From NCBI RefSeq assembly GCF_014199335.1, contig NZ_JACIJI010000002.1:496001-560000 (forward strand): a stretch of DNA of 64,000 nt. The letters are read 5' to 3'. A program made the position numbers and the translations under genes. Origin of the DNA: Stakelama sediminis. Lineage in GTDB: Bacteria; Pseudomonadota; Alphaproteobacteria; Sphingomonadales; Sphingomonadaceae. Of this stretch, positions 4,980-58,228 are shown one piece after another. Under the pieces are notes generated by a model that was not told the origin of the DNA, made no database searches, and worked only from the letters and a program-made list of their open reading frames with translations. Each line of letters opens with the position of its first letter. Position 1 is the first letter of the stretch.

Positions 4980-4982
4980 GCG

Positions 4983-5000
4983 ACGGTTCAGGCAAACCGT
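4983..5000. other. Small stem-loop in the lptD-surA gap
   Basis: ACGGTT (4983-4988) and AACCGT (4995-5000) form a six-base-pair stem with a six-base loop immediately after the lptD stop codon. It may trim or partly terminate the message before surA. No T tract follows. Confidence 0.3.
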
Positions 5001-5082
5001 GCGACAAGAACGATGTAATACGGCGCGCCCGGCGCGACGCGAAGTGAGGGTTATTATCCAGGTGAAGCATTTGATTCCGAAC

Positions 5083-6429: not shown

Positions 6430-6432
6430 GCC

Positions 6433-7449: not shown

Positions 7450-8279
7450 CCTCCCCCGCCTTGCCTGACCTGCCGCCGCTGCGGGAGGTCATCCGCAAAC
7501 ATGGCCTGTCGGCCAGCAAGGCACTGGGGCAGAACTTCCTGTTCGATCAGCAGTTACTGGGGCGCATCGCGGCCATTCCCGGCGACTTGCAGGATGCCGA
7601 GGTGCTGGAAATCGGCCCCGGCCCCGGCGGTCTCACCCGCGCGCTGCTGGCAGCGGGAGCACGGGTCACGGCCATTGAACGCGATACGCGCTGTATCCCG
7701 GCGCTTGCCGAACTGGAGCATGTCTGGCCGCGGCGGCTGCGCGTGATCGAAGACGATGCGCTGAACATCGACGCCCCTGCGCTGTTCGAAGGGCGACCGC
7801 ACATCGTCGCCAACCTGCCCTATAATGTCGGCACCGCATTGCTGGTCCGCTGGCTCTCGGCGGAGTGGCAACCATGGTGGCAGAGCCTGACGCTGATGTT
7901 TCAGCGCGAAGTGGCGGAACGGATCGTCGCGCCGCCCGGCACTTCCGCTTATGGGCGCCTCGCCGTACTTGCTCAGTGGCGCAGCAGCGCCCGTATCGCC
8001 ATGCCGGTCCACCGCTCGGCCTTCACCCCGCCGCCCAAGGTCATGTCGGCGGTGGTCCATATCGTGCCGGGAGAAGCGCCGGAGGGCGTGACCTTCGCCA
8101 AACTCGAACAGTGTACTGCCGCCGCTTTTGGCCAGCGGCGCAAGATGCTGCGCCAGTCGCTCAAATCCGTTCCCGGCGCGGTAGAGGCGCTGCCCGCAGT
8201 CGGTATCGACCCCGCCCGACGTGCGGAAACTGTAAGCGTGGACGAATTCGTCGCGCTGGCGCGGCAGCTTTCCGTTTAG
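7446..8279 (+). CDS. rsmA: 16S rRNA (adenine1518-N6/adenine1519-N6)-dimethyltransferase
   Basis: Dimethylates the two adjacent adenines in the 3'-terminal hairpin of 16S rRNA using S-adenosylmethionine; also called KsgA. The 277 residues show the SAM-binding motif I ([10 protein letters not shown], residues 55-64) and the catalytic motif [10 protein letters not shown] (123-130), with the [10 protein letters not shown]-terminal signature. The start overlaps the pdxA stop by four bases. The pdxA-rsmA pairing is widely conserved in proteobacteria. Its stop overlaps the stop of the convergent TPR gene. Confidence 0.96.
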
Positions 8280-8785
8280 TCTTTGGTGGTATCCGGCGTT
8301 GCCGGTTTCGCGGTCTGCTGCGCCGTCTTGACCGGCGGCCCCTTGGCGATCACCGCCGCAAGCTGATCGGCCGCCCCGCAATCCTTGCCGCAAATCTTGC
8401 GCAGCTTGGTCAGATTTTCCTGCGCCTTGACGACCGCGCCCTTGGCGACCATCGCCTCGCCCTGCCCCTTCAGCGCCACCTGATCATTGGGATCGAGCTT
8501 CAGCGCCTCGCGATACATACGGATCGCCTGACCGGGCATTCCCTGATCACGCGCAACCTTCGCCAGCACGATGAACGCCTGACGGTTGCGCGGATCAACC
8601 GCCAGCGCGGTTTCCAGCGCATCGGTGGCAGCTTCGAACTTACCGGCCTGTTGCGCTGCCTCACCCTGTTTGAGCAGGGTCAGCGAACGCGGATTGATCT
8701 GGTTGTCGGGCCGCTGTCCATACAGCGATGTCGAAACGCTGAGCAGCGTCAGGGCTATAGCGGCCGAAACCGTGGTGATACGCAT
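8276..8785 (-). CDS. Exported tetratricopeptide-repeat protein
   Basis: A 169-residue protein with an N-terminal signal peptide ([16 protein letters not shown]..., cleavage near SLYGQ) and about three TPR units. Examples are [19 protein letters not shown], then [20 protein letters not shown] with canonical Ala/Tyr positions. TPRs are protein-protein interaction scaffolds; a periplasmic role is likely but the partner is unknown. Three consecutive ATGs are possible; the third (8783-8785) has the best spacing from GGAG. Convergent with rsmA (four-base stop overlap), downstream of the RsmB gene on the same strand. Confidence 0.75.
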
Positions 8786-8817
8786 CATCATCTCCGGAAA
8801 TGTACGCCCGCCCGCTA

Positions 8818-10002
8818 TCACGTGCAATGCAGCTTCGCGACAAAAAAGCCGTCTGTCCCATCATGGGCGGGGGTCAAGCGCATGCCGTCAGCGTGGCGGG
8901 TTCCCAACGGCAATGCAAGCGTTTCCGCATGCCAGCCGGAATGATCGGCAAGGAACCGCTCGATCTGATCGCCACCTTCCGCGTCCAGCAGCGAGCAGAC
9001 GATATAAGTCAGGCTGCCGCCGGGACGGATCAGCGATGCCGCAACGTCAAGCAGCCGGGCCTGAAGCCGGGTCAGCGTTTCCAGCCGCTGGGACGTCAGC
9101 CGCCAGCGCGCCTCGGGATTACGGCGCCAGGTGCCCGTCCCCGAACAGGGCGCATCGACCAGCACGATATCGGCCCGCCCGGTCAGATCCTCCAGCGCTT
9201 CCGCCTCCCGACCGGGGTTGAGCAGGCGCGTTTCGGCAATCGTCACGCCCGCTCGTTCGGCACGCGGCGTAAGACGGGAAAGCCGTCCACGATCCGCGTC
9301 GCAGGCGATCAACCGTCCCTGGTTCGCCATCAGCGCGGCCAGCGCCAGCGTCTTGCCGCCGCCACCCGCGCACAGATCGACGACGGTCATGCCGGGCGCG
9401 GCCCCTGCGGCAAGCGACACTGCTTGACTGCCCGCATCCTGCACTTCGAACGCCCCGTCGTTCCACAGCGGGTGGCGCTCGATCTGGCTGTCGACCGGCA
9501 AGCGCAGAGCCATCGGCAATCCGGCGATAGGCCCGGCGCCCTCCAACGCGCTTCGAACGCTATCGGCATCGGAGCGTAACGGATTGACGCGAATATCCAG
9601 CGGCGCACGGTCGAGTAGCGCTTGCAAATCCGATATGGTCAGGCCCGCCGCGATCAGCCGTTCGGTCAACCATTGCGGGGCGACACCGGTTTCAGCCACC
9701 GGCTCGCCATCGGCAACCGCTTCCGGCGCATGCCCGCCAGCACCGAAATGCGCCATCAGTTCGGGTGGATCCCGTGCCAGTGCCAGCATCGCCGCGCGAC
9801 CGCTTTGCGGACGCTCTCCCAGCAGGCGGATGGCATCGTAGACCAGCGCCCGCACCGCCCGCCGATCCTTCGATCCGGCATAGCGGCGCTGGGCGAAATA
9901 GCGGGCGATAATCGTATCCGCCGCCGCCCCGCCATCGCGCGCGGCGACGATCACGGCGTCCAGCAGTTCGATCGCCGCCTGGGTGCGTGCGGCCGGAGTC
10001 AT
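8818..10002 (-). CDS. rsmB: RsmB/NOP2-family rRNA (cytosine-C5) methyltransferase
   Basis: Methylates a cytosine of 16S rRNA at C5. The 394-residue protein has an N-terminal NusB-like RNA-binding domain (about 1-130) and a C-terminal Rossmann methyltransferase. The latter includes motif I DLCAGGGGKTLAL, motif IV VDAPCSGTGTW with the release cysteine, and motif VI TYIVCSLL with the nucleophilic cysteine. Both catalytic cysteines of the m5C family are present. It starts seven bases after guaB, so the two are probably one transcript. E. coli RsmB modifies C967; the exact position here is inferred by family only. Confidence 0.87.
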   Translation of the reverse strand: MTPAARTQAAIELLDAVIVAARDGGAAADTIIARYFAQRRYAGSKDRRAVRALVYDAIRLLGERPQSGRAAMLALARDPPELMAHFGAGGHAPEAVADGEPVAETGVAPQWLTERLIAAGLTISDLQALLDRAPLDIRVNPLRSDADSVRSALEGAGPIAGLPMALRLPVDSQIERHPLWNDGAFEVQDAGSQAVSLAAGAAPGMTVVDLCAGGGGKTLALAALMANQGRLIACDADRGRLSRLTPRAERAGVTIAETRLLNPGREAEALEDLTGRADIVLVDAPCSGTGTWRRNPEARWRLTSQRLETLTRLQARLLDVAASLIRPGGSLTYIVCSLLDAEGGDQIERFLADHSGWHAETLALPLGTRHADGMRLTPAHDGTDGFFVAKLHCT

Positions 10003-10008
10003 GTCGGG

Positions 10009-13055
<3,047 letters not shown>

Positions 13056-26633: not shown

Positions 26634-28019
26634 TTACTCGGCAGCTTCCTCCCGATCGTCGCTCACCGCCAGTTTGGTCAGCGGGCGTGCCGATTGTTCG
26701 ACCATCGGCAGACTGTCGAGGCTCTTGCCGCCGGTATCGACGTTCAACGTCTCGAACCGCCGTGCCGACGTCATGACCTGCGACTCCATGCTGCCGACGA
26801 AGCTGTTATACGCCCCCATCGCGGTTTCGAGGTTCTTGCCCAGTTTCGAAACATGGCCGCCCATAGTGTAGAGCCGCGCGTGCAGTTCCTTGCCCAGTTC
26901 GGCGATCTGCCGCGCCTCGCCGGCCAGCTTCTCCTGACGCCAGACCGCGGCAACGGTGCGCGCAATCGCAATCAGGTTGGTCGGCGTTGCGATCAGCACC
27001 CGGCGATCGAACGCATAGTCCCAAAGCTCCGGCTCATGTTCCAGCGCGGCGGACAGGAAATGCTCGCCCGGCACGAACATGATGACGTAATCGGGCGTGT
27101 CGTCGAACTGGTTCTGATACGCCTTGGCCCCCAGCGCGTTGATATGGTTCTTCATCGACGCGACATGCGCCGCCATGAACGCGGCGCGTTCGGCCTCATC
27201 CACCGCGCCGTGCGCGTCCTGATAGGCGTTCAGCGACACCTTGGCGTCGATCACCAGACTGCGCCCGCCCGGCACCTTGACGATGGCGTCGGGACGCAGC
27301 CTGCCGCCCTCGGTATCGACGCTCACTTCCATCTGGAAATCGGTATGTTCGGCCAGGCCGCAGGTTTCGAGCACGTTGCGCAACTGCTGCTCGCCCCATC
27401 GTCCGCGTGCCTTGGGCGCCGACCGCAAGGCGTTGGAAAGCTTCGCCGCTTCGCTGCGCACCGATTCCTGCCCGATCCGCATTTCGCTGATCACGCCTTT
27501 CAGGTCGCCATAGGCTTCCTGCCGCTCCTTCTCGACCTTCGAAATCGACTCCTCATAGCGTTTAAGCGTGTCCTGCACCGGCGCCAGCAACGCCTTCAGC
27601 TTCGCCTCATTCGCCTTGCCCTCTTCGCTGAACCGGTCGTTTGCGCGCGCCAGAAAGCTTTTCTGCGCCTCGCCCAGCAGATGCGTGGCGACCTCACGAA
27701 ACTGGCCGGCCATCGCCTCTCGAGCATCCTTGAACTCGGTCAGTCGGTCCTCGAACGCCCCGGCCTTCGCCTTCAGGTCGGCAAGTTCCAGCCGCGCCGC
27801 ATCGCGTTCGTCGCGCAGCCGTTCTTCCACGTCACGCAGCCGCCCGACCTCATTCGCCTGCTCCTGCGCGCGGGCCAGATCGGTGATCGCCGCCTTGAAA
27901 TCCTCGGTACGCGCATCGCGTTCGGCGCGCATCGCCGCCACGCCGCGATTGCCCAGAAACCAGCCGATGGCCAGCCCTGCGGCCATGGCGATAATGATGG
28001 CGACCAGTTCCAGCGTCAA
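26634..28019 (-). CDS. rmuC: DNA recombination protein RmuC
   Basis: RmuC limits inversions at short inverted repeats, and the family carries a nuclease-like domain. The 461-residue protein has an N-terminal membrane anchor (LVAIIIAMAAGLAIGWFLG). A long coiled coil follows (about 25-190, rich in Arg/Glu/Ala heptads), then the conserved RmuC domain (about 190-400; GRWGEQQLRNVLE, VIDAKVSLNAY, FVPGEHFLSAAL). The TTG at 28017-28019 is preferred because GGGAGGG lies at good spacing; the next candidate is an ATG at 27986. Confidence 0.92.
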   Translation of the reverse strand: MTLELVAIIIAMAAGLAIGWFLGNRGVAAMRAERDARTEDFKAAITDLARAQEQANEVGRLRDVEERLRDERDAARLELADLKAKAGAFEDRLTEFKDAREAMAGQFREVATHLLGEAQKSFLARANDRFSEEGKANEAKLKALLAPVQDTLKRYEESISKVEKERQEAYGDLKGVISEMRIGQESVRSEAAKLSNALRSAPKARGRWGEQQLRNVLETCGLAEHTDFQMEVSVDTEGGRLRPDAIVKVPGGRSLVIDAKVSLNAYQDAHGAVDEAERAAFMAAHVASMKNHINALGAKAYQNQFDDTPDYVIMFVPGEHFLSAALEHEPELWDYAFDRRVLIATPTNLIAIARTVAAVWRQEKLAGEARQIAELGKELHARLYTMGGHVSKLGKNLETAMGAYNSFVGSMESQVMTSARRFETLNVDTGGKSLDSLPMVEQSARPLTKLAVSDDREEAAE

Positions 28020-29434: not shown

Positions 29435-30340
29435 ATGAGAGTGATTTTCATGGGAACGCCCGAATTCGCGGTACCGGTGCTCAACGCGGTGGTGGCCGCC
29501 GGGCATGATGTCGTTGCGGCATACAGCCAGCCGCCACGCCGGTCGGGTCGCGGTAAGAAGCTCCATCCCTCCCCGGTTCATGCCCGCGCCGAACTGCTCG
29601 GCATTCCGGTATTCACGCCCCCGACCCTGCGCGATGAGGCAGAACAGGCACGGTTTGCCGGGTTCAATGCGGATGTCGCCGTGGTCGCGGCCTATGGTCT
29701 GTTACTGCCGCGCGCGGTTCTCGCCGCGCCCCGTCTGGGATGCCTCAACGTCCATGCCTCGCTCCTGCCGCGCTGGCGTGGTGCGGCCCCGATCCAGCGC
29801 GCAATTCTGGCTGGCGATGGCGAAACCGGCGTCGGCATCATGCAGATGGAGGCGGGACTCGACACCGGGCCGGTACGACTGGAAGGGCGCACCCCCATCG
29901 GCGGCAAGACGGCGGGCGACCTGACCCGCGAACTGTCGGACCTTGGCGCGCGGCTGATGATCGAGGTGCTGGCCGATCCCGATGCCTATCCGCCGGTGGC
30001 GCAGGCCGAAACCGGCGTCACCCAGGCGCCGAAGATCGACAAGGCGGAGGCTCGGCTGAACTTCGCGCAACCGGCGGGAGCGGTGGAGCGGCAGATACGT
30101 GCCTTCAACCCCGCTCCCGGCGCCTTTTTGGAAATCGCCGGGGAGCGTATCCGCGTCCATTCCGCCGAAATCGCTGAAGGCGGCGGCACACCCGGCACAG
30201 TGCTGGACGATGCCCTCACCATCGCTTGCGAAACCGGCGCGATCCGCCCGAAAACTGTGCAACGCGCGGGCCGTGGCGTCATGGCGGCGGAGGACCTGCT
30301 GCGCGGTTTCCCGATTCCTGCGGGTACGCAATTGACGTGA
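29435..30340 (+). CDS. fmt: Methionyl-tRNA formyltransferase
   Basis: Formylates initiator Met-tRNA with 10-formyl-tetrahydrofolate. The 301 residues include the Rossmann domain ([16 protein letters not shown]) and the catalytic triad Asn105 and His107 ([12 protein letters not shown]) with Asp143 (GLDTGPV). A C-terminal OB-fold tRNA-binding domain follows from about residue 210. It overlaps truA by four bases (GTGA), so they form a coupled pair, and the def gene is on the opposite strand nearby. Confidence 0.97.
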
Positions 30341-46287: not shown

Positions 46288-48921
46288 GTGCGTCCAGCGC
46301 TGCTTTCGGCTTTTGCCTTCCTTCTCGCCACGGCGCCGATGGCCGCCCATGCCCAGACCGCACAAACCCTTCCGACCGGGAAATTGCCGGACACTGCGGC
46401 GCCCACGGCATATCGGCTCAGCCTGACCATCCTGCCGTCGCAGCAGCGCTTTTCCGGACACACCTCCATCGATGTCGACGTCAAGCGGACGACGACCATG
46501 CTCTATATGCATGGCCGCGACCTGAAGGTCAGCAAGGCGACCGCGATCATCGGCGGTCAGACCTTCCCCGTCAGCTTCAAACAACTGACCCCGCTCGGCC
46601 TTGCCCGCCTCGATTTCGGACGCCGGGTGCAGCCCGGAAAGGTCACGCTGAACTTTACCTATACCGCACCGTTCGGAACGGGCGCGGCGGGCCTCTATCA
46701 CGTCAAGGTCGGCGATCAATGGTATAGCTGGACGCAGTTCGAATCGATCGACGCGCGCGCCGCCTTCCCCTCGTTCGACGAACCCGGTTTCAAGACGCCG
46801 TTTACCGTCTCGCTGACCACCAAACCCGGCTTCACCGCGGTCAGCAACGCGCCGCAGGTCAGCACGAAACAGGACGGCGCGCTCGTCACCCATATCTTCG
46901 AACCGACCAAGCCGCTGCCGACCTATCTCGTCGCTTTCGTCGTCGGTCCCTTTGCAACGGCAAAGACCGAAGCCGCGCCGACGCCGGAGCGCAAGGAACC
47001 GCTTCCAGTCGGCATCGTCGGCACGCAGGCGAACAAGGACAAGCTCGAATTCGCGAAAGAGAATACCGGCAAGATCGTCGATCTGCTCGAAAAATATTTC
47101 GGCGAAGCCTTTCCTTTCCCCAAGCTGGACCAGATCGGATCGCCGATCATGGGAGGCGCGATGGAAAATGCAGGCGCCGACATTTACGGCGACAATATCC
47201 TGTTCCTCGGTCCCGATGCCTCGACCGCGCAGAAACAGGAATTCGGCATGGTCGTCGCGCATGAACTGTCGCACCAGTGGTTCGGCGATCTCGTCACGCC
47301 GAAATGGTGGGACGATATCTGGCTGAACGAGAGTTTCGCCAACTGGATGGGCTATCGCATCGGCAATGAATGGCGGCCCGACCTCAATATCGGCATCAAT
47401 GCGAAAGCCGAAGCGTTCAGCGCGATGCAACTGGATGCGCTGAAGGCCGGTCGCCCGATCCACGGCAAGATCACCCACGACGCCGATATCAACAGCGCTT
47501 TCGACCAGATCACCTATGGCAAGGGCGGTCAGGTCGTGGCGATGATCGCTGCCTATATGGGCGACAAGAAGTTTCAGGCGGGTGTTCGCCTGCACCTGAA
47601 ACGCCATGCCTATGGCAATGCCTCGACCGACGATTTCTTCAAATCGCTGGCGGATGCGGCAGGCGATCCACGTGTTCTCGCTGCGATGAAGAGCTTCGTG
47701 GATCAGCAGGGCGTGCCGGTGGTGACGCTGCGCCGCGACGGCAACAAGCTGACCGCAACACAGGCGCGCTATCATTATCTCGGCAGCACGCTGAAACCCG
47801 AAAGCTGGGGCATTCCGCTGTGCATTCGTCAGGGCGATCAGCGTAACTGCACGCTGATGGACAAGCAGCAGATGAACATCACGCTACCAGGCACCGGCGC
47901 GATCATGCCCAATGCGGGTGGCACCGGCTATTACCGGTTCGATCTCGACCCCACCGACTGGCAGGCGCTGATCGCGACTGCGCCGAAACTGGTACCCGGC
48001 GAAGCGCTGGCGCTCGACGACAGCGCATGGGCCGATTTCTATGCCGGCAAGGGCACGGTCCAGCGGCTCGTCACGCTGACACGGGAAATGGCGCAGAACC
48101 CGGATTCGAACGCCGCCATCGACAATGGTTTGCGGTTCGCGCGCATCGCCGGTCAGGGTATCGTGCCCGACAGTGCCATGCCCGCCTATCACCGCATGAT
48201 CGAGCGTATCTATGGCCCGCTGCTGAAACAGCTCGGCTTCGATCCCAAACCCGGTGCATTTTCCGACGACAGTCCCGACCGGCAGAAGCTGCGTCAGGCG
48301 GTAGTCGCCCTGATGATTTCGGGCGCGAAAGACGATGCCCTGCGCGGACAGATCGTGCAGGCCACACAGGCCTATCTGGAGGGCCAGACCGACGCGATCG
48401 ATGAAAGCTATCTGGGTGCCGGCCTGGGAGTGTTGATCGAACAGAAGGGGCTGGATTTTGCGAAGTCGCTTGCGGATCGCGCACTCAGCAGCGACGACTC
48501 CGAATTTCGCAGTACCGCGCTTGCCGCAATTGGCAATTCAGGCAATCCGGAAATCGCAAAATGGTTGATCAACGACTTCAGCGATCCGCGCCTGCGCAAG
48601 ACGGAGATGCTGGACCTGATCGGCGGAATTGCGCGATCTTCCCAAACCCGGCAACTGGCGCTTGATTATCTGTCGACCAATTTCGACACCATTGCCAGGA
48701 ACGCCGGCATCTTCGCTGCCATCCGCATCCCCAGCCTGTTTGCGGGTGCCTGTTCGATGCAGCAGGCCGATACGCTGGACGAAAAGCTGCGGCCCAAGGT
48801 GCAGGCTGCCAATGTCGGCATGCTCGGCTTCGACCGCACCGTAGAGGCAATCCGTGTCTGCGCTCGGGTCAAGGCTGCGCGTGCTCAGGAAGTCGGTCAG
48901 GCGCTGAACGCCGCCGAATAA
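46288..48921 (+). CDS. M1-family zinc aminopeptidase, exported
   Basis: An 877-residue secreted aminopeptidase of the ERAP/PepN (gluzincin) family. A signal peptide ends at AAHAQ (about residue 23). The N-terminal saddle domain is followed by the exopeptidase motif GAMEN (290-294) and zinc site HELSHQW (His325, Glu326, His329) with Glu348 in NESFANW. A long C-terminal ERAP1-like helical domain begins at about 530. It would release N-terminal amino acids from peptides in the periplasm. GTG start after TTCAGGGAG. It converges on the M28 peptidase, with a strong hairpin between them. Confidence 0.95.
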   Translation: MRPALLSAFAFLLATAPMAAHAQTAQTLPTGKLPDTAAPTAYRLSLTILPSQQRFSGHTSIDVDVKRTTTMLYMHGRDLKVSKATAIIGGQTFPVSFKQLTPLGLARLDFGRRVQPGKVTLNFTYTAPFGTGAAGLYHVKVGDQWYSWTQFESIDARAAFPSFDEPGFKTPFTVSLTTKPGFTAVSNAPQVSTKQDGALVTHIFEPTKPLPTYLVAFVVGPFATAKTEAAPTPERKEPLPVGIVGTQANKDKLEFAKENTGKIVDLLEKYFGEAFPFPKLDQIGSPIMGGAMENAGADIYGDNILFLGPDASTAQKQEFGMVVAHELSHQWFGDLVTPKWWDDIWLNESFANWMGYRIGNEWRPDLNIGINAKAEAFSAMQLDALKAGRPIHGKITHDADINSAFDQITYGKGGQVVAMIAAYMGDKKFQAGVRLHLKRHAYGNASTDDFFKSLADAAGDPRVLAAMKSFVDQQGVPVVTLRRDGNKLTATQARYHYLGSTLKPESWGIPLCIRQGDQRNCTLMDKQQMNITLPGTGAIMPNAGGTGYYRFDLDPTDWQALIATAPKLVPGEALALDDSAWADFYAGKGTVQRLVTLTREMAQNPDSNAAIDNGLRFARIAGQGIVPDSAMPAYHRMIERIYGPLLKQLGFDPKPGAFSDDSPDRQKLRQAVVALMISGAKDDALRGQIVQATQAYLEGQTDAIDESYLGAGLGVLIEQKGLDFAKSLADRALSSDDSEFRSTALAAIGNSGNPEIAKWLINDFSDPRLRKTEMLDLIGGIARSSQTRQLALDYLSTNFDTIARNAGIFAAIRIPSLFAGACSMQQADTLDEKLRPKVQAANVGMLGFDRTVEAIRVCARVKAARAQEVGQALNAAE

Positions 48922-48966: not shown

Positions 48967-51225
48967 TCAGGATGCCGAACCGTCCAGTACCGCCCGCGCA
49001 GCATCCAACCGCGCGGCGTATGCGTTCAGCGCCCTGGCAGTACGCACTGCATACTCATTGGCATCATCGAAGCGACGTTCCTCGATCGCTTCACGCACCC
49101 CGGCAATGGTTTTCGCGCCATAGCCGGTGAAGCGGCCCGGTGCGTAGATCAGATTCCGGAACCATGGCCGCCCGGTCAGCCCCTTCGGGTCCAGCAGCAA
49201 CTGGTCGATACTGAGCAGCAGCTCGTTCAGCTTTGCCCGGCGATCGGCAGACAGCTCCGCCCCATTCGCTGCATAGGCCGCGTCATAGGCGCTGGCACTT
49301 GCCTTCAAATGGTCGACGGCATTTTCCAGCGGCGCCAGCACGAGATGCGGCGTACGCGGTTCCACCGCCGGAGCGGCAACCGGATTATCCGGATTGCTGA
49401 CGGCACGAAACGCTCCGTCCCGGGTCAGTTTGACCTGTTCATCGTCCTTCGCGCGCTGTTTTGCCTCCAGCGTCTCGATCTGCCCCATATAGAGCGATAC
49501 GGCATCGGCAAAGTCAGTGAAATGCTGCGGCGGGGTCGGCGCGTCGGCCATGCGCAATACGATCCGGCCGACGACCTGCGACAAGGCGGAACCATATTTC
49601 AGCCCAGGATCGTCGAACGCCATGACATGGTGAAAACTGTCATAGACCGAGTGATAGGCTCCGTAATTCGGGCTTTCTCCGCTAAAGCCCAGGCTGAGCG
49701 AGGGGATGCCGACATGCTCCAGAAAGCCGGCATAGTCCGATCCCGACCCCAGCGGCTCGATGGGAAGATCGCCCCCACCTTTCGCCGCTTTCAGCATATC
49801 GGGCGACACATGACCGCCAGCAAATTTACGCGTCAGCACTCCGTCACGCAGCCGGTCGAGCACCGACACCCCGGTTTCGGGATCGGACACGCCTGCCGCC
49901 GCTTCGTTTACCAGATGCTGGAAATCCTGACTGCCGCCCGCGTGCAGATAGCCGCGCCCGCCATTATCGGTGTTGACGTAGAGCAGCGCCTTTTGCCGCA
50001 ATTCCTTTTCATGGTCCTCGGTCCATTCGGTCGAACCGAGCAGTCCCGGCTCCTCCCCGTCCCAGGCGATATAAACGATCGAACGTTTGGGCCTCCAACC
50101 CTGTTTGACCAGCGCGCCGATCGCCTTTGCTTCGCCCAGCATGGCGACGGTACCGGTCAGCGGATCTGACGCACCGAATACCCAGCCGTCATAATGGTTG
50201 CCGCGTACCACCCACTGATCGGGATATTGCGAACCCGGAATCGTGGCGACGACATCGCGCACCGGTTTCAGCGACCAGTCCGACTTAACCGCCAGATGCA
50301 CCTTGACCGCGCCTGTTCCGCCAATGTGATAGGCAAAGGGCAGTGCCCCCTGCCAGCCATCGGGCACATTGCGCCCCTGCATCGCCTGCAGCAGCTTCGT
50401 CGCATCGCCATAGGACATGGGCAGGGCGGGAATTTTCAGGATGCTGGGCGCGGTTTTGCGCGTCAGCCGCTTAGCATCTGCGGTCGCTGCATAGCCGGGG
50501 GTCAGCGGGTCGCCCGGATGGATGCTCTGATCCTGCACCGATCCGCGCTGCACGCCCGCGGCCGATCGCCAGCCGCCCTTGGGATAGACATCGCCGCGCG
50601 CATAGCCGTCATCGGCAGGGTCGGAATAGATGATACACCCGATCGCGCCATGCTTCTGCGCCAGTAATGGTTTCAGGCCGCGCCAGCCCTCTCCGTAGCG
50701 CGCGATGACGATCTTTCCCTTGACCGAGATACCGCGTCGGGCAAGCGCCTCGTAATCGTCACGCATACCGTAATTGACATAGACCAGGTCGCCGGTGACG
50801 TCGCCATCGCCCTGATAGGCGAGATAGGGCGGTAACGCGCCTTTGGTGTGATAGGAGGTTGGATCGCCCTTCACCGGCGGCTCCTGCCCGCCCAGCCTGA
50901 TATGCTCCGGCGTCACCATCTCGACCTTGGTCGAGATCGGCGTCGGATAGAGCACCTGATAGGTGTCGATGCGGACGTCCCAGCCCCATTTGCGAAACTG
51001 TGCCGCAATGAACTGCGTGTTGGCCGCATCGTGCGGCGATCCGACCTGATTGGGCTGCGACGACATTTGCTTCAGCCAGGCTATCTGCCCCGCATTGTCG
51101 ATTGCCCGATCGAACCGCGCATCAAGCGGGTTCGGGTCCGTCGCGACGGATCGCGGCGCTCCCGTCGCCATGCCGCTTAACATCGTACAGGACAGCGCAG
51201 CCGCCAGTGTAAGCCGTCGGATCAT
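48967..51225 (-). CDS. M28 peptidase, glutamate carboxypeptidase II-like, exported
   Basis: A 752-residue exported homologue of human GCPII/NAALADase. The signal peptide ends near GMATG. A PA domain spans about 120-320 (KIVIARYGEGWRG, IIYSDPADDGY). The M28 catalytic core has zinc ligands His344 (GNHYDGWVFG), Asp354 and Glu391/392 (DGEEPGLLGSTEW), then Asp420 (VNTDN) and His524 (YHSVYDSF). A TFR-like dimerisation domain ends the protein. By eye, the glutarate-sensor Arg (WRG) and a Tyr near the C terminus are kept but a Lys is not, so C-terminal glutamate specificity is possible, not assured. ATG 51223-51225 has GGGGGGA at proper spacing. Last gene of the receptor-GGT-M28 operon. Confidence 0.92.
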   Translation of the reverse strand: MIRRLTLAAALSCTMLSGMATGAPRSVATDPNPLDARFDRAIDNAGQIAWLKQMSSQPNQVGSPHDAANTQFIAAQFRKWGWDVRIDTYQVLYPTPISTKVEMVTPEHIRLGGQEPPVKGDPTSYHTKGALPPYLAYQGDGDVTGDLVYVNYGMRDDYEALARRGISVKGKIVIARYGEGWRGLKPLLAQKHGAIGCIIYSDPADDGYARGDVYPKGGWRSAAGVQRGSVQDQSIHPGDPLTPGYAATADAKRLTRKTAPSILKIPALPMSYGDATKLLQAMQGRNVPDGWQGALPFAYHIGGTGAVKVHLAVKSDWSLKPVRDVVATIPGSQYPDQWVVRGNHYDGWVFGASDPLTGTVAMLGEAKAIGALVKQGWRPKRSIVYIAWDGEEPGLLGSTEWTEDHEKELRQKALLYVNTDNGGRGYLHAGGSQDFQHLVNEAAAGVSDPETGVSVLDRLRDGVLTRKFAGGHVSPDMLKAAKGGGDLPIEPLGSGSDYAGFLEHVGIPSLSLGFSGESPNYGAYHSVYDSFHHVMAFDDPGLKYGSALSQVVGRIVLRMADAPTPPQHFTDFADAVSLYMGQIETLEAKQRAKDDEQVKLTRDGAFRAVSNPDNPVAAPAVEPRTPHLVLAPLENAVDHLKASASAYDAAYAANGAELSADRRAKLNELLLSIDQLLLDPKGLTGRPWFRNLIYAPGRFTGYGAKTIAGVREAIEERRFDDANEYAVRTARALNAYAARLDAARAVLDGSAS

Positions 51226-51274
51226 CGTCATTCCCCCCTTTGGGTTTTGATAGCAGTCGTTAAGCCGGTGCTGG

Positions 51275-53059
51275 TCAGCGCACCCCAAGCGCCAGCGCGT
51301 CCGGTCGCCTTGTATCCGCAGCGCCCAGAAATTTATCGCCGTCGATCATGATCGACTGGGTGCTGCCCATCGTCTTGGACGGCACCACACGATGACCCTT
51401 TTCCTCCAGCAGGCGGGCGATATCGGGCGAGAATCCGGCTTCCATTTCCAGCGGCCCGTCACCACCATATTGGTTAATGCGCGGACGTTCGGCCGCCTCG
51501 GCAATGTTAAGGTGATGGTCGATCACGTTCGACAGCATCTGCACCATCGTCGCGATGATCGTTCCGCCGCCCGGCGTACCCGACACGATCCAGGGCTTAT
51601 CCTGCCTGAACACGATCAGCGGCGTGATGGTGGAGCCGACCCGCTTGCCGGGCATCACTTCCATCGCCTTGTATACCGCCGCCCGCTTACCCCAGGCAAG
51701 ATTCCCCAGCGAGTTGTTGAGCAGGAACCCCGTTCCCGGTGCGACCACATGCGCGCCATAAGAAGAACTGAGCGTATAGGTGGTGGAGACGACATCCCCC
51801 TCGGCATCGGCAACCGAAATATGCGTCGTGTCCTTGCCCTCGAACGGATAGGGATCGCCCTTCGGCATCGTCTTACCGCTCAGCGAAGTATCGGGTTTGA
51901 TCAGCGCCGCGCGTTTGGCCGCATACGCCTTGCTCGTCAGCCCTTTGACGGGTGTGTTCCAGTCCGGCCCGCCGCCGACCAGCCGCCGGTCGGACGATAC
52001 GATCTTCATCGTCTCGGCCAATACATGCAGGTCCGCGACACTGCCCCAGCCCATTTTCGCGACGGGGAAGTTTTCCAGAATATTCATCGCCTCGGCAACG
52101 CTGACACCCGACGCGGTGGGCGGCTGATAGGCAATGCGATAGCCGCGATAGGTGGACCAGATCGGCGGCGTGACGTCGGCATGATAGGAATCGAGATCCT
52201 GCTGGTCGATAATACCGCCATTGGCTTTCATCGCGGCAACCAGCTTCTGCGCCACCCAGCCCTTGTAAAAACCGTCACGGCCATGATCGCGGATCGCGGT
52301 CAGCGTGCGCGCCAGATCCGGCTGACGAAACAGGTCCCCCGGCTTGTACGGGGTGCTGTCGGGTTTCAGATAGGCCGCCCGCGCGCCGGGGTCTTTTGCG
52401 AGCGTCTTTGCCTCCTGAGCGGTGGCATCGGCCTCTGCATCGCTCAGAATTACACCCTTAGTGGCCAAGTCGATCGCAGGCTGCACGACGTCTTTCCACG
52501 GCAGCTTTCCGAAGCGGTGATGCGCGGCCCACAGACCGGCCACCGTACCGGGCACCGCGACGCCCTTGAACGACCAGCTTTTTGCATGGTCGAACGACCC
52601 GTCGGGTTTCAGCAACAGTGTCGGCGTCACCTTATGCGGGGCAATGCCGTAAAAGTTGATCGCCACCGTCTTTCCCGGCTGGCCGTCGTGCGGCGCCATA
52701 TGAATCAGCATGAAGCCGCCGCCGCCCAGATTACCGGCTCGCGCCAGAGTAACCGCTTCGGCAAAAGCGGTTGCAACCGCTGCATCGACGGCATTGCCGC
52801 CCTTGCGCAGGATCGCCACCCCTACCTTCGCACCATAGCCGTTCTGGCTGACCACCATGCCGTCACGCCCGATGACCGGATGATGGATGGAGCCGTAGCC
52901 GACAATATCCCCGCCGGTTTTGGCATAGGCCGGAGACTTTGCCGCGGTTGCGGTTTCGGCCGCCTGCTTCGCCGCAAGCGGCGGAGCGAGGAGCGCCGCC
53001 GCCGCGACTGCGGCGGCGGCATGGCAGGCCATGGTACGGATGGGGAGTTTGAGGAGCAT
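51275..53059 (-). CDS. Gamma-glutamyltransferase-family Ntn hydrolase, atypical pocket
   Basis: A 594-residue exported precursor of the GGT family, which self-cleaves before a catalytic threonine. The processing site is DTTHISVAD with Thr411. GNLGGGGFM, PGTVAG and the late SPDIARLLEEKGH and GSTQSIM blocks confirm the family. By eye against E. coli GGT, several residues that grip the gamma-glutamyl alpha-carboxylate and amino groups are changed: Arg114 to Tyr137, Asn411 to Ser, Gln430 to Ser450, Asp433 to Asn453. Substrate may thus be non-classical. The ATG 53057-53059 (AAGGAA upstream) starts a long Ala-rich signal peptide. It lies 13 bases after the receptor gene. Confidence 0.92.
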   Translation of the reverse strand: MLLKLPIRTMACHAAAAVAAAALLAPPLAAKQAAETATAAKSPAYAKTGGDIVGYGSIHHPVIGRDGMVVSQNGYGAKVGVAILRKGGNAVDAAVATAFAEAVTLARAGNLGGGGFMLIHMAPHDGQPGKTVAINFYGIAPHKVTPTLLLKPDGSFDHAKSWSFKGVAVPGTVAGLWAAHHRFGKLPWKDVVQPAIDLATKGVILSDAEADATAQEAKTLAKDPGARAAYLKPDSTPYKPGDLFRQPDLARTLTAIRDHGRDGFYKGWVAQKLVAAMKANGGIIDQQDLDSYHADVTPPIWSTYRGYRIAYQPPTASGVSVAEAMNILENFPVAKMGWGSVADLHVLAETMKIVSSDRRLVGGGPDWNTPVKGLTSKAYAAKRAALIKPDTSLSGKTMPKGDPYPFEGKDTTHISVADAEGDVVSTTYTLSSSYGAHVVAPGTGFLLNNSLGNLAWGKRAAVYKAMEVMPGKRVGSTITPLIVFRQDKPWIVSGTPGGGTIIATMVQMLSNVIDHHLNIAEAAERPRINQYGGDGPLEMEAGFSPDIARLLEEKGHRVVPSKTMGSTQSIMIDGDKFLGAADTRRPDALALGVR

Positions 53060-53072
53060 GGCCGCCATTTCC

Positions 53073-56000
53073 TTACAGCGTCGCGCGGACGTTGACGTAC
53101 AGATAGCGCCCATAAGGGTTGTAAAGCGCCGCCTCATAGCCGTTCGAACTCAACGGTGGGGCCACATCGAACAGATTGCGTGCGCCGATCCGCAGGCGAT
53201 ACTGGTGCGACCCCTTCGCCCCGATGGTGACTTGCCCGTAGAGATTGACGGTCGTGCGTCCGCTGACGAGCCAGGGATTGCCGTCATCGTCAATCAGACC
53301 GGTATCGTCGACGGAGCTGGTATATTGGGTATACCCACCCACCTGGAACTGCTTGAGGCTCCAGGTCAGACTACCCGACAGTTTCCATTCCGGTTTACCG
53401 TTCTGACGCAGCAAATCGCCGCCGCCGCTGATATAGATAGACGGATCGATGTCTCCTGCATTCTGCGCTGACATCAATGCCGAAATATCGGGCGAAGGCG
53501 ACAGATAGAATTTACCCAGATGCGCGGCATTTAAGTTCAGCGTGAAGTCGCCTGCGCCGGTATCGCGCACGCTCCAGATCAGGCCCAGGTCGATGCCTTC
53601 CGCCGTCTGCGGCAACAGGTTGCGATAGGCGTCCTTGACGTACAGGATCTCACCAACGGGATCGATTCCGGTCCCTGCAAATTCGGCGATATCGTCAGCA
53701 GTCGGCGTGGCACGCACGACATCGGGATCGCTGCTGCCCTGCGTACGCAACAGATAGTCCTTGATGATCGAATTGGAGTCGCCGAAGATTCCGACCATAC
53801 CTTCCTGATGCACATGCCAGTAATCGGCAGTGATCGTCAGTTGGCCGAACCGGGACGGAATGAATTTGGGTTGCAGAACCACGCCCACCGTCCAGGATTT
53901 TGATGTCTCAGGCTTCAGGTCGGGATTGCCTGAGCGCTGAGAAATCACCGCTTGGGTTTCGCTGCAATCGTTAAAGCTTGAAATCCTCCCGGCGATCAGG
54001 TCCGCCTCGCACCGGATATAGTCGGTGCGCGTATTGGAACGCGTCACGACGGTTGCGTTGACCTGCTCCAGATTCGGTGCCTTGAACCCTTCGGAATAGG
54101 AACCGCGAATGCGCAAGCCGTCGACAATGTCCCAGGCGCCGGCGATTTTCGGCTTCGCCACCGACCCTGCGTCGCTGTAATGCTCAAACCGGCCCGCAAG
54201 CTGTAACTCGACATTATAGGCCAGCGGCACGTGCATGTCGGGGGAAATGACCGGAATGGCCAGTTCGGCATATGCCGACTCTACCGTGCGCCGCCCGAAG
54301 ACGTCGGGTGACGGACTGGTGCCGACAATATCGCTGCCATAGGTTTCGCCGGTCACGGAATCGGTAAAGGTGATCGTGCCGTCCGCACGCGGATCGCGAT
54401 CGTCGCTCTGTGTTTCGCGACGCACCTCCGCACCGATCGCAATGCCCAGATCGCCACCGGGTAGATGGATCAGATCGGGCCGCGACGCCTTGATATCCCA
54501 AGACGCCAGTGTCGATTTGTCAATGCGATTGGCGTAAACCTTCATCGCATCGATGGTGGCCTGATTGCTCTTGGTCGTGTCGCCGATACTGGGATTTTCC
54601 AGATTGCCGCCATTGAACGGATCATAGGCATCCGGCGTCGACAGCGCCAACGCCTGCTGGACCAGCGTTGCGCTGAGTGCGGTCGTCCGATCGTGCACGC
54701 GCGCTTCCGAATAGAGCGCGGCGGATTCGAACTTGAATCCGGCCATATGCCAGCGGATGCCGCCGACCAGCCGGTATTCGCTGTTCGTCACCTCCACCAG
54801 GTTGGGGCCGGTATCGGAAAAATCATAGCGCTTCAGCGTGACCGGAAGCCCTTCGTCGGGCACATTGGTCAGCCCCGGCAGACGATTGGGATTGGGCGAA
54901 CCGTCCGGCAGGGTTACCGCACCGAACGGGTTGTAATAGTTGCTTGCCGGGACCGTGATCGGGATCGAGCTGAGATTATAGGTGGCGTACTGCCAGCTTC
55001 GCGTCTTGGCGAGATAAAGCCCGCCCTCTCCGAACAACACAACGTCCGGTGCGATTTCGTAATGCGCGGTCGCGTACAGATTTCCGCGATCGGTTTCCGG
55101 CATGATCGTCTCATTGGACGATGCCGTACGATCATAGCGCAAATTGCGATCAACAGTTGAGGTGGCGGCCGAACCTGAACCGATACAGATCCCATTCGGC
55201 AGGGTGGCACTGCAATCGGGATTTGTCTGTGGCTGAATGTGGAACAGCCCCGAAGAAGAGGTAATCCGCGTGCCGTTCTGATAAACGCCGCCACTGGCAC
55301 CCACGACCCCGAAATAACCCCAGGGCGTGGTCGTCGACCGTCCGTCGAGCGACGTCGACCCGTCGAAACGCGTGCCCGCAAACAGATCGCGCTTGTCGTC
55401 CGACGCCGTATAATACTGGTCCTCCGCGCGCAGCATTGAACGATGCGTATAGTCAGCAAAGACCGTGACGTTGCCCGCACCATTGGCGAACGATGTCCCG
55501 GCAATGCCGTTCGCACTGAATTCGTGCAGGCCGGTACCTTCAGCCAGACCGTACTGGGCGCTTACGCTGGCACCCTGATAGTCCTTTTGCAGCACGACGT
55601 TGACCACACCGGCAACTGCATCCGATCCGTAAATCGCCGCCGCACCGTCGCGCAACACTTCCAGCCGCTGGATACCCGCGACCGGAATGGCGTTGGCATT
55701 ATAGGTCAGCACCGGAACAAGCTGGTCGTTGGCGCGGCTGGTGGGATGGTGGACCACTCGGCGGCCGTCGATCAGCAGCAGTGTATTGCCGACACCCAGA
55801 TTGCGCAGGTTGATCGAGCCGACATCGCCACGCGCCGCGTTTGAGCTTTGGGGCAGATAGGCGGAGTTGAACGAGACATCGCCAAGCTGCGGGATCGACC
55901 GCAACAGTTCGTCGCCCGACACCGCGCCGGTTGCGGCAATCTGGTTACTGTTGAGAACCGTTACGGGCAGCGCCTCGGCTACCTTACTACCCTGAATCTG

Positions 56001-56480
56001 CGTGCCTACGACGACGATATCGCTCTTGCCTTCATCAGCCGAAGGAACAGATGCAGGCGCGCTTTGCGGTACCGTGGTAGCAGTACCCGTTTGCCCGCCT
56101 TCCTTCGCGGCCGAGGATGCCACCGCCGCGCTGTAATCAATGGCGGTCATATGGGCGTTACGCCGTCCGGCGCGGACAATCCGCACGGCATCGGGAGCAG
56201 TATAGCGATAGGTGTACCCGCTTCCCGAAAGCACGACGTCCAGCATTTCGCGCGCGGTATATTTGCCCGACAGTTCAGGCGCGCGCAGGCGGGTGATGGC
56301 GCTGTCGGTAAAGATCAGTTGCAATCCGGTGGAACGTGAAATCTGAAACAGCGCCGCACTGAGCGGTTGCGCGGGCAAATCAATCTGGATGCGTTGCTGT
56401 GCAATCGGCGTCGGACTCGTTTGAGCAAAAACGGGCGTGGCAATCAGGCAGGCAGCACCTGCCAGCAGCATGGTCTTCAT
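53073..56480 (-). CDS. STN-domain TonB-dependent outer-membrane receptor (transducer type)
   Basis: An 1135-residue outer-membrane receptor. Signal peptide to PVFA-Q (about residue 20), then a secretin/TonB short N-terminal (STN) domain (about 30-105; IDLPAQPLSAALFQIS, TGLQLIFT). That domain normally contacts a FecR-type anti-sigma factor to signal ligand binding. A linker, TonB box-like DIVVVGTQ, plug domain (LLRSIPQLG, INLRNLGVGNTLLLIDGRR, VLRDGAAAIYGSDAVAGVVN) and a 22-strand-type barrel ending in VRATL follow. ATG 56478-56480 has GGGGGGA upstream. First gene of the operon with the GGT-like and M28 peptidases and divergent from fecI-fecR, which points to ligand-induced autoregulation. Confidence 0.95.
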   Translation of the reverse strand: MKTMLLAGAACLIATPVFAQTSPTPIAQQRIQIDLPAQPLSAALFQISRSTGLQLIFTDSAITRLRAPELSGKYTAREMLDVVLSGSGYTYRYTAPDAVRIVRAGRRNAHMTAIDYSAAVASSAAKEGGQTGTATTVPQSAPASVPSADEGKSDIVVVGTQIQGSKVAEALPVTVLNSNQIAATGAVSGDELLRSIPQLGDVSFNSAYLPQSSNAARGDVGSINLRNLGVGNTLLLIDGRRVVHHPTSRANDQLVPVLTYNANAIPVAGIQRLEVLRDGAAAIYGSDAVAGVVNVVLQKDYQGASVSAQYGLAEGTGLHEFSANGIAGTSFANGAGNVTVFADYTHRSMLRAEDQYYTASDDKRDLFAGTRFDGSTSLDGRSTTTPWGYFGVVGASGGVYQNGTRITSSSGLFHIQPQTNPDCSATLPNGICIGSGSAATSTVDRNLRYDRTASSNETIMPETDRGNLYATAHYEIAPDVVLFGEGGLYLAKTRSWQYATYNLSSIPITVPASNYYNPFGAVTLPDGSPNPNRLPGLTNVPDEGLPVTLKRYDFSDTGPNLVEVTNSEYRLVGGIRWHMAGFKFESAALYSEARVHDRTTALSATLVQQALALSTPDAYDPFNGGNLENPSIGDTTKSNQATIDAMKVYANRIDKSTLASWDIKASRPDLIHLPGGDLGIAIGAEVRRETQSDDRDPRADGTITFTDSVTGETYGSDIVGTSPSPDVFGRRTVESAYAELAIPVISPDMHVPLAYNVELQLAGRFEHYSDAGSVAKPKIAGAWDIVDGLRIRGSYSEGFKAPNLEQVNATVVTRSNTRTDYIRCEADLIAGRISSFNDCSETQAVISQRSGNPDLKPETSKSWTVGVVLQPKFIPSRFGQLTITADYWHVHQEGMVGIFGDSNSIIKDYLLRTQGSSDPDVVRATPTADDIAEFAGTGIDPVGEILYVKDAYRNLLPQTAEGIDLGLIWSVRDTGAGDFTLNLNAAHLGKFYLSPSPDISALMSAQNAGDIDPSIYISGGGDLLRQNGKPEWKLSGSLTWSLKQFQVGGYTQYTSSVDDTGLIDDDGNPWLVSGRTTVNLYGQVTIGAKGSHQYRLRIGARNLFDVAPPLSSNGYEAALYNPYGRYLYVNVRATL

Positions 56481-56533
56481 CGTCAAGGTCCCCCCTTTGA
56501 GACGGTTGGCCGATTTCCGGCCTTGCACTTCGA

Positions 56534-56549
56534 TGACGCTACGCCGTCA
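56534..56549. promoter_or_regulatory. Palindromic site 1 (TGACG-N6-CGTCA), receptor side
   Basis: TGACGCTACGCCGTCA is a perfect inverted repeat of TGACG with a six-base centre. It lies 53 bases upstream of the receptor start. The same half-sites and the first four spacer bases (CTAC) recur upstream of fecI, so it is likely a protein-binding site controlling the divergent pair. Confidence 0.55.
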
Positions 56550-56590
56550 AAAAAACGAACCCGCAATGTCGAAAAAATGTAATTTTTTTC

Positions 56591-56602
56591 CATGCGCGCA
56601 TG
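56591..56602. promoter_or_regulatory. Palindrome in the A/T-rich core of the divergent promoter region
   Basis: CATGCGCGCATG is a perfect 12-base palindrome. It follows an A/T-rich stretch (about 56570-56590) that stands out in this GC-rich window and probably contains the core promoter of one or both operons. Role unknown. Confidence 0.35.
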
Positions 56603-56629
56603 AATCAATGGACATTATGTTCGCATTTG

Positions 56630-56656
56630 TGACGCTACAACGTCATAGGATTGACG
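56630..56656. promoter_or_regulatory. Palindromic site 2, three half-sites, sigma-factor side
   Basis: TGACG (56630-56634), CGTCA (56641-56645) and TGACG (56652-56656) alternate in orientation with starts exactly 11 bases apart. The first pair reads TGACGCTACAACGTCA, matching site 1 in 14 of 16 bases. It ends about 25 bases upstream of the fecI ATG, so it overlaps the leader or promoter. Confidence 0.55.
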
Positions 56657-56681
56657 GATACCTGCGGGGGCGAAAGGGAAT

Positions 56682-57215
56682 ATGCACAGGCGGTTTGCTC
56701 ATGTACCCATCGGCGATGCCGATACGGACGAGCAGATCAAGCTCTATCTCTCCGCATTGCGTAAATTCGTGACGCGTCGTATCGGCGACCATGATCTGGT
56801 CGAAGACCTTGTGCAGGAATCCTATCTGCGCCTTCTGGCCCGTAATCGCGATAATCCGGTACTGGAGCCGCAAGCCTATCTTTTCCGCATCGCCAGTAAC
56901 CTGCTTGCCGATCTGCATCGCGGCGCGAAGCGAGCGCCGACTACAGACTGCGACCCGGAAAATGAGATTCCGGTACGTCCGACCCAGGAGGATGCGCGCA
57001 GTCGCGCCGACCTGCAACACATGTTCGAAGCCGCGCTGGCGGAATTGTCCCCGAAATGCCGCGCAGTATTTCTCATGCGCCGGTTCGACGATCTCGACAC
57101 CGGCGCCGTTGCGACCCGGCTCGGCATCAGCCACCGCATGGTGCAAAAATATATGACGGCGGCGATGACGCATCTATATGCGCGGCTCGGTCACCACCGT
57201 GGAGGTGAGCAGTGA
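56682..57215 (+). CDS. FecI-type ECF RNA polymerase sigma factor
   Basis: A 177-residue sigma factor with region 2 (LRKFVTRRIGDHDLVEDLVQ, LLARNRDNP, PQAYLFRIASNLLAD) and region 4 (ELSPKCRAVFLMRRF, VATRLGISHRMVQKYM). FecI-type factors are held by a membrane FecR protein until an outer-membrane receptor with an STN domain signals ligand binding. The partner genes are all here: fecR overlaps downstream and the STN receptor diverges. The ATG follows AAGGGA. The target promoter is probably that of the receptor operon. Confidence 0.93.
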   Translation: MHRRFAHVPIGDADTDEQIKLYLSALRKFVTRRIGDHDLVEDLVQESYLRLLARNRDNPVLEPQAYLFRIASNLLADLHRGAKRAPTTDCDPENEIPVRPTQEDARSRADLQHMFEAALAELSPKCRAVFLMRRFDDLDTGAVATRLGISHRMVQKYMTAAMTHLYARLGHHRGGEQ

Positions 57216-58228
57216 CCGACAAGCACGATCTGGGTGCGAAGGCACAAGTGACGTTCGAACGCATGTTCGATGCACGAACGGAATCGGTTTCCGCGGCCGA
57301 CCGGGAAGAGGCGGAAGCCTTCTGGAACTGGCTGGGTGAGTTCGAACGCCCCGCAGACAGTGCGGCGGAGCCTGACCGCCGCATTCTGCGGTGGCCGCAG
57401 CCCTATGTCTTCGGGCTGGCGGCGGCAGCGATTGCGGCGTGCCTGATGCTGGCCTTCACCTGGGACTGGCTGCCCTTGCACGCCAACCGGTCGGCGCAGG
57501 CACCCGTCGTCTTCGCGTCGGGGAACGCCCAGCAACGTGTCATCGACATGCCTGATGGCTCGGTCGTTACGCTGGCCGCCGACAGCCGGGTCGACATTCG
57601 CTATACCAAGGCGCATCGCCGCGTCCGGCTGGTGCGTGGGGAAGCCCTGTTCAAGGTCGCGCACAACAAGCAACGTCCCTTCATCGTCAGTGCCGCCGGC
57701 GGATCAGTCACCGCAGTGGGCACGGCGTTCGACGTCCGGCTGGACCACCCATCCAAAGCGCAGGTCACGGTCGTCGAAGGCGTGGTCAAGGTCGCCGTCG
57801 CCTCTCGTAATTCGGAAAGCGACAGCAACCTTTCCCGATTGGCGCGCAAGGGGCAGCAGGTTGATTTCGGCCTCGACAAGACAGCCCGGGACACGCAGGC
57901 AGCGTTCATAACGGCGCGTCAGAACGCCAATATCGACCTGACGACCGCCTGGACACGCGGAATGCTGTATTTCAATGGCGAGCCGCTTTCTCAGGTGATC
58001 GACACGGTCAACCGCTATACGGATCAGAAGGTCGTGCTGGCCGATCCGGCAAAGGCGAATATGCCCATTTACGGGCTGATTACGCAGGGCGATACCAGCG
58101 CGCTCAAGAACCTGGTCGCGCAACCGAATATCATCAGGACCGATACCGCAACGCAAACCGGTCAACGCCGTCAAACGGCAGAAAGCGGTTCAGGCCCGCA
58201 GCAACAGGACGGCGATACGGCTCCCTGA
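57212..58228 (+). CDS. FecR-family transmembrane anti-sigma factor
   Basis: A 338-residue single-pass inner-membrane protein. The cytosolic N-terminal region is about 1-68 (DREEAEAFWNWLGEF, the sigma-binding FecR_N type). One transmembrane helix follows at about 70-90 (VFGLAAAAIAACLMLAF). The periplasmic FecR domain is about 100-235 (MPDGSVVTLAADSRVDIRY, VRLVRGEALFKV, VGTAFDVRL), with a C-terminal segment (about 255-310; MLYFNGEPLSQVIDTVNRY) that should meet the receptor STN domain. GTG start overlaps the sigma factor stop (GTGA). A Gln/Thr-rich tail ends it. Confidence 0.93.
   Translation: MTDKHDLGAKAQVTFERMFDARTESVSAADREEAEAFWNWLGEFERPADSAAEPDRRILRWPQPYVFGLAAAAIAACLMLAFTWDWLPLHANRSAQAPVVFASGNAQQRVIDMPDGSVVTLAADSRVDIRYTKAHRRVRLVRGEALFKVAHNKQRPFIVSAAGGSVTAVGTAFDVRLDHPSKAQVTVVEGVVKVAVASRNSESDSNLSRLARKGQQVDFGLDKTARDTQAAFITARQNANIDLTTAWTRGMLYFNGEPLSQVIDTVNRYTDQKVVLADPAKANMPIYGLITQGDTSALKNLVAQPNIIRTDTATQTGQRRQTAESGSGPQQQDGDTAP

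Follow-up and report, generated by a model that had tools for sequence, protein, structure and literature searches.

A 64,000-nucleotide stretch of the Stakelama sediminis genome (Alphaproteobacteria, Sphingomonadaceae; contig NZ_JACIJI010000002.1, positions 496,001 to 560,000), hereafter the window, was found to harbour a five-gene locus in which a fecI-fecR pair, encoding an extracytoplasmic function (ECF) sigma factor and its regulator, diverges from genes for an STN-type TonB-dependent receptor, an N-terminal nucleophile (Ntn) hydrolase of the gamma-glutamyltransferase (GGT) fold, and an M28B peptidase with the domain layout of glutamate carboxypeptidase II (GCPII). An earlier, sequence-only reading had proposed these five genes, and all of the open reading frames (ORFs) were present in the order, on the strands and at the coordinates it gave, with their domains named by Pfam (Table 1). 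The fecR gene has a GTG start and overlaps fecI by 4 bases, the GGT ORF begins 13 bases past the receptor stop codon, and the M28 gene has two in-frame ATG codons (48967-51231 or 48967-51225), placing it 43 or 49 bases from the GGT stop codon; with gaps this short, the receptor, GGT and M28 genes very likely form one operon. Their three products appear to be exported, as the N-termini resemble export signals when judged by eye.

Table 1. Genes, domains and predicted promoters of the locus, in window coordinates.
Feature	Position	Strand	Basis
fecI, FecI-type ECF sigma factor, 177 aa	56682..57215	+	Sigma70_r2 and Sigma70_r4_2 above Pfam cut-offs
fecR, FecR-type sigma regulator with periplasmic signalling domain, 338 aa	57212..58228	+	Pfam FecR, E 2e-21
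STN-type TonB-dependent receptor, 1135 aa, ATG start	53073..56480	-	Pfam TonB barrel E 1.2e-29, Plug E 2.7e-14, STN E 1.6e-6
STN signalling domain of the receptor	56172..56324	-	Pfam STN; 2a02 match; co-occurrence with fecI-fecR
GGT-fold Ntn hydrolase, 594 aa, ATG start	51275..53059	-	Pfam G_glu_transpept E 2.7e-141; residue columns; AlphaFold2 model
M28B peptidase, GCPII domain layout, 754 aa	48967..51231	-	Pfam TFR_dimer, Peptidase_M28, PA; residue comparison
Predicted ECF promoter of fecI, GTTCG-N17-CGTCAT	56619..56646	+	Comparison of intergenic regions
Predicted ECF promoter of the receptor operon, GTTCG-N17-CGTCAT	56533..56560	-	Same motif, opposite strand

The GGT-fold protein passed the TIGR00066 gamma-glutamyltransferase model (452.6 bits; cut-off 357.85), and its AlphaFold2 model, with a mean predicted local distance difference test (pLDDT) score of 85.7, was matched best by E. 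coli GGT (2e0w) in Foldseek, other fold matches being cephalosporin acylase, LmbA and HpxW. The threonine nucleophile (T411, at 51827-51829) and the oxyanion Gly-Gly are kept. However, all four residues that contact the gamma-glutamyl donor are replaced, with Y137, S431, S450 and N453 at the positions of E. coli R114, N411, Q430 and D433 (R114Y, N411S, Q430S and D433N). Among the 18 canonical GGTs compared, these positions are occupied by R, N, E and D. Publications are cited here by PMC number; in the first of these, R114 is described as contacting the donor alpha-carboxylate and D433 the donor alpha-amino group (PMC8062742).

This replacement was found to be shared by a group of relatives. 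GGT matches at an E-value of 1e-120 were retrieved from 34 of 396 genomes of the order (including that of S. sediminis), and ten loci from this sample, together with three from a scan of genome contigs, carried the same signature, YSSN: Y at 114, S or T at 411, S at 430 and N at 433, three of the positions being invariant. The columns of E. coli T391, G483 and G484 were fixed in all 13 loci, and a lid-loop segment was shortened across the clade, including in the window protein. A second group of 14 loci (RGQN) keeps R114 and has G at 411, Q (E in one) at 430 and N at 433. In a phylogeny built with the four donor columns removed and one sister-group locus (L017) left out, the YSSN proteins formed a single clade (support 100/100), nested with the sister group in a receptor-linked clade of 26 rows (100/99).

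Mutagenesis of characterised GGTs, as reported in PMC8062742, bears on these replacements in both directions. An aromatic residue at the R114 position (R109F of the B. licheniformis enzyme) and the E. coli substitutions R114L/D left no detectable activity, and D433N converts E. coli GGT to a glutaryl-7-aminocephalosporanic acid acylase, Asn433 being the state of class IV cephalosporin acylases. Against a loss of gamma-glutamyl activity, the same source gives 82% retained hydrolytic activity for E. coli D433N and 85% retained activity for B. licheniformis R109S (also the R114 position), and describes several GGTs that naturally have no lid loop. Given these retained activities and lid-less enzymes, gamma-glutamyl hydrolysis by the window enzyme is rated as no more than unlikely. 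If the uptake reading set out below is right, clade members annotated as gamma-glutamyltransferases probably do something else. The S. sediminis genome also encodes a separate GGT with canonical residues (C2:284677).

The M28B peptidase was compared with human GCPII and GCPIII, with residues given in human numbering as counted along the printed alignment. It retains the zinc ligands together with Arg210, Tyr552 and Tyr700, has Ser in place of Asn257 and Gly in place of Lys699, and has lost the arginine patch, with His, Ser and Gly at the positions of Arg463, Arg534 and Arg536; the roles of these GCPII residues in the P1' glutamate pocket and the S1 arginine patch are described in PMC10794815 and PMC12207593. 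Ser at 257 also occurs in C. elegans GCPII orthologues and is termed conservative by the authors who describe them. The same pattern at 210, 257, 699 and 700, with the patch absent, was seen in four sphingomonad relatives, including a paralogue in the S. sediminis genome (62-63% identity). The peptidase may still bind a free C-terminal carboxylate; judging by the residues lost, glutamate is not specially recognised. Near the genome's other M28B gene (in L007, G000:C5), genes for an MmeI-like methyltransferase and for a restriction endonuclease of Mrr type were observed at 2919-7201.

These results bear on the proposal that a gamma-glutamyl compound, such as glutathione, folyl-polyglutamate or poly-gamma-glutamate, is imported and taken apart by a GGT and a glutamate carboxypeptidase. 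The family names and folds, the TIGR00066 score and the activity left in point mutants of known GGTs speak for it; ranged against it are the four changed donor residues, of which three are fixed throughout the clade and the fourth is Ser or Thr, the inactive R109F and R114L/D enzymes, the Gly at Lys699 and missing arginines of the M28 protein, and the canonical GGT encoded elsewhere. We consider it quite unlikely. The sequence-only reading had inferred an amide- or glutamyl-containing cargo, and the glutamyl part of this was not borne out, as the GGT-fold enzyme has none of the four donor contacts and the M28 protein lacks the GCPII residues for a P1' glutamate and an acidic P1 residue.

The association of the GGT-fold gene with the receptor was examined in a comparison of 50 loci, from which L011 and L014 had been dropped because their contigs are those of L103 and L128. 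A receptor of the window family was located within 2.7 kb of the GGT gene in all 13 YSSN loci and in 11 of the 14 sister-group loci, against one of 18 canonical loci (L155; two if a weak match in L150 is counted) and none of five others. The difference (24/27 versus 1/23) gave a Fisher p of 1e-9 with relatedness ignored, the counts having been entered by hand from the neighbourhood and STN tallies. Two further loci with the signature RTGQN, L028 and L029, lay outside this comparison; L029 has a receptor of 34% identity and L028 has none, so the sister-group figure would become 12/16 with them. Most canonical GGT loci of the contig scan were likewise outside it, and no receptor match was detected beside 38 canonical-signature GGT loci (within L021-L064), some of which have short flanks. 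The Tsuneonella loci L010 and L128 are near-identical, hence there are fewer independent cases than the counts suggest. Two contig titles were at odds with their contents: L028, titled as a Klebsiella pneumoniae metagenome-assembled genome (MAG), carries a second-group GGT almost like those of L017 and L018 and is probably misbinned, and L013, titled as a Vicinamibacteria MAG, has a YSSN GGT that groups with that of a Caulobacterales MAG, through either transfer or misbinning; the L013 receptor also has a different N-terminal extension.

The four-gene core of fecI, fecR, STN receptor and GGT was present in six of the 13 clade loci. The sequence-only reading had expected all five genes to be conserved together, and had listed the failure of this as half of what would refute it; M28 was found beside the GGT gene in the window alone (1/13). 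M28 was likewise rejected as a conserved partner of the GGT on the evidence of 199 genomes sampled from the family (that of S. sediminis included), in which strong M28 matches occurred in 22, strong GGT matches in six and both in two, namely S. sediminis itself and G083, where they lie on different contigs. In 11 of the 12 other clade loci, M28 is replaced by an M20 or M14 zinc exopeptidase gene, such that one of the three families is present in 12 of 13 overall. M20 genes were identified in L127, L103, L129, L130 and L131, and past fecR in L010 and L128; M14 genes were identified in L131, L104, L133, L132 and L012. In L127, the nearest relative from within the genus, the product of the gene downstream of the GGT resembles N-alpha-acyl-glutamine aminoacylase (6slf, E 2.9e-64), the M20 gene of L011/L103 is related to HmrA and Xaa-Arg dipeptidase, and for the M14 gene sequence searches gave no solved relative. 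An M1 aminopeptidase gene (46288-48921) converges on M28 in the window; it was considered as a member of the unit and rejected, being absent from beside the GGT in the loci searched in other species (L010-L089), with a related M1 gene in L130 only.

The recurring neighbours that could be identified, in an annotation that left out L017 and L010, were exopeptidases, LysR regulators and an enzyme resembling D-amino-acid dehydrogenase, with an aspartate/glutamate-type symporter appearing less often. No iron-transport gene was among the identifiable recurring neighbours, some clusters of only two or three loci being left unannotated. The sister group has the dehydrogenase-like gene in seven of 14 loci and an SDF symporter in four of 14, families being named on representatives. 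These genes, and the retention of R114 beside N433 in the sister group, would suit a cargo of cell-wall or other D-amino-acid peptides, for instance gamma-D-glutamyl peptides, with the altered pocket accepting another stereochemistry; yet by clustering the dehydrogenase-like enzyme is found in none of 12 YSSN loci, L104 having one unrelated DAO-family protein, and in the YSSN clade R114 has been lost as well, which leaves this explanation a slim chance.

Members of the receptor family also occur apart from the clade GGTs. Of 12 such loci fetched, eight had a nearby SDF symporter and an NtrC-type response regulator (families again named on representatives). A paralogue of 57% identity in the S. 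sediminis genome (L102, G000:C2:116000-135000, at 7982-11275), in whose fetched surroundings no clade GGT was seen, is accompanied by an SDF symporter, an alpha/beta hydrolase and a porin O/P protein, with a divergent sensor kinase and NtrC-type regulator, and similar sets were seen in other sphingomonads. In L105 and L109, a different GGT-fold subgroup (approximately 30% identity, with Q114 and R430) adjoins this receptor family, alongside a gene for an amidohydrolase that carries PD40 repeats.

Regarding the signalling genes, fecI relatives of 55-61% identity were present in five other loci, and FecR residues 105-303 matched the signalling domain of PupR (6ovk, E 2.2e-13; PMC7186176). The receptor STN domain was marginal by Pfam alone (28.2 bits; curated cut-off 28.4), but the call was upheld because the region matched a ferric-pseudobactin receptor domain of solved structure (2a02, E 1.6e-5) and because STN co-occurs with fecI-fecR in relatives: among 24 related receptors beside clade GGTs, an adjacent fecI-fecR pair was found for six of six with STN and none of 18 without. 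In L133, whose receptor has no STN domain, such a pair lies several kb off, past an M14 gene. An ECF sigma factor gene adjoining that of a FecR-type regulator, and a receptor with an N-terminal STN domain, are two features of FecI/FecR/FecA-type systems that the locus shows, and the surface-signalling architecture put forward in the sequence-only reading was upheld by the Pfam, 2a02 and 6ovk matches and by this co-occurrence. Signalling would run from receptor to FecR to FecI.

A motif, GTTCG-N16/17-CGTCWT, was common to both sides of the fecI-receptor intergenic region in the window, L010, L014 and L103. Of two held-out loci, L129 had it on both sides; in L127 the receptor side matched and the fecI side kept just the CGTC core. 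The exact motif was therefore present on 11 of 12 sides in six loci, and on the receptor side in six of six, two of these held out. It is predicted to be an ECF-like promoter facing both fecI and the receptor gene, and the presence of two such sites between the divergent genes is consistent with autoregulation of the unit. The window contained four matches against 0.24 expected, of which two lie away from the locus and are unexplained (27082-27108 and 29906-29933 (-)). Across the genome, 25 matches were found, compared with 12 for the reversed pattern, indicating that the motif by itself is insufficient to define a regulon.

Circuits of FecI, FecR and an STN receptor mostly serve iron (PMC1790865, PMC9249621), and PupR, which the FecR domain matches, belongs to a pseudobactin system, hence the locus could instead import a ferric siderophore complex whose ligand, peptide- or amide-based, the hydrolases would cut to free the iron. 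Fur boxes, sought with two consensus forms in the intergenic regions of five loci, showed no excess over a first-order resampling shuffle (180-427 of 500 shuffles reached the observed score), a weak test because alphaproteobacterial boxes differ. Also counting against an iron system are the lack of iron-transport genes among the identifiable recurring neighbours and the company of the STN-less related receptors, namely LysR, D-amino-acid-dehydrogenase-like and symporter genes. An iron system is thus rated unlikely, and the view of the sequence-only reading that an organic cargo is likelier than iron is favoured by the receptor-GGT pairing and by those same neighbours. A GGT of Caulobacter, CC_0984, is reported to be lowered under iron limitation (PMC3751524).

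The reading that we prefer, though we give it only about an even chance, is that the locus is an operon for the self-sensed uptake of an amide-linked organic compound, which a repurposed Ntn hydrolase and a swappable exopeptidase would cleave in the periplasm. The receptor would bind the cargo and its STN domain would signal via FecR to FecI, which would then transcribe its own operon and that of the receptor. Once in the periplasm, the cargo would have an amide split by the exported GGT-fold enzyme, acting as an amidase or acylase without gamma-glutamyl specificity, and a C-terminal amino acid removed by the exopeptidase, an M28B zinc enzyme in the window and an M20 or M14 one in relatives, the products serving for carbon and nitrogen. 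Both enzyme activities are proposed from sequence comparison, and the most likely cargo would be an N-acylated amino acid or small modified peptide. Such a two-step cleavage accounts for the fixed receptor-GGT core together with the exchange of M28, M20 and M14.

Several points, in addition to the activity retained by mutant GGTs, weigh against this reading. No substrate is on record for any clade member, FecI/FecR circuits are mostly iron systems, and the receptor structure model was too poor for use (pLDDT 58.9). The M28 gene may be a passenger, no exopeptidase was seen in the flanks of L013, and in the Tsuneonella loci L010 and L128 the M20 gene is more than 5 kb away, past fecR, with a second, different TonB receptor after the GGT.

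A broader proposal, held tentatively and at somewhat less than even likelihood, is that a GGT-fold Ntn lineage was recruited by one TonB receptor family and had its donor pocket rewritten stepwise, D433N and N411G first and R114Y and Q430S later. This would have produced a peptide or amide counterpart of a polysaccharide-utilisation locus, in which the receptor and Ntn acylase are fixed, whilst the regulator, either FecI-FecR or LysR, and the zinc exopeptidase, of the M28, M20 or M14 kind, are exchangeable, for acylated amino acids or modified peptides. Sphingomonads encode many TonB receptors of unassigned cargo, for which the locus, if so interpreted, would offer a testable route of sensing and uptake of amide-linked organic nitrogen. 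For annotators, the residue signature makes the group recognisable, and the swapped exopeptidases suggest that details of the cargo vary by species around a constant core. In searches of open-licence literature on these gene families, no listed title or abstract opening described this locus.

Among known systems, the isopeptidase-containing lasso-peptide clusters likewise bring a dedicated amide hydrolase together with a TonB transporter and a sigma/anti-sigma pair (PMC9266682), demonstrating that these components can travel together. By analogy, the locus might retrieve a dedicated peptide, secreted by the organism or by a competitor; the overall logic is the same, but the hydrolase families differ, with an S9-type isopeptidase there (PMC9266682) and a GGT fold and M28B here, the five-gene unit being without an S9 isopeptidase, and this explanation is given only a very slight chance. 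The Fec, Pup, Fpv and Fox signalling systems resemble the locus in having an ECF sigma factor, an STN receptor and a FecR-type regulator whose signalling domain is like that of PupR, and differ from it in that the downstream genes here encode amide hydrolases, not a ferric transporter. Furthermore, fecIR of E. coli is described as Fur-controlled and not autoregulated (PMC9249621), whereas a predicted promoter here precedes fecI too. The M28B protein shares with GCPII the PA, M28 and TFR-dimer domains, the zinc ligands, Arg210, Tyr552 and Tyr700, and departs from it at Lys699 (Gly), Asn257 (Ser) and the arginine patch. With gamma-glutamyltransferases (MEROPS T03; EC 2.3.2.2), the clade has in common the fold, the Thr nucleophile and the oxyanion Gly-Gly, and with class IV cephalosporin acylases the Asn at position 433 (PMC8062742); it is set apart from both by R114Y, N411S, Q430S, the shortened lid loop and the constant link to a TonB receptor.

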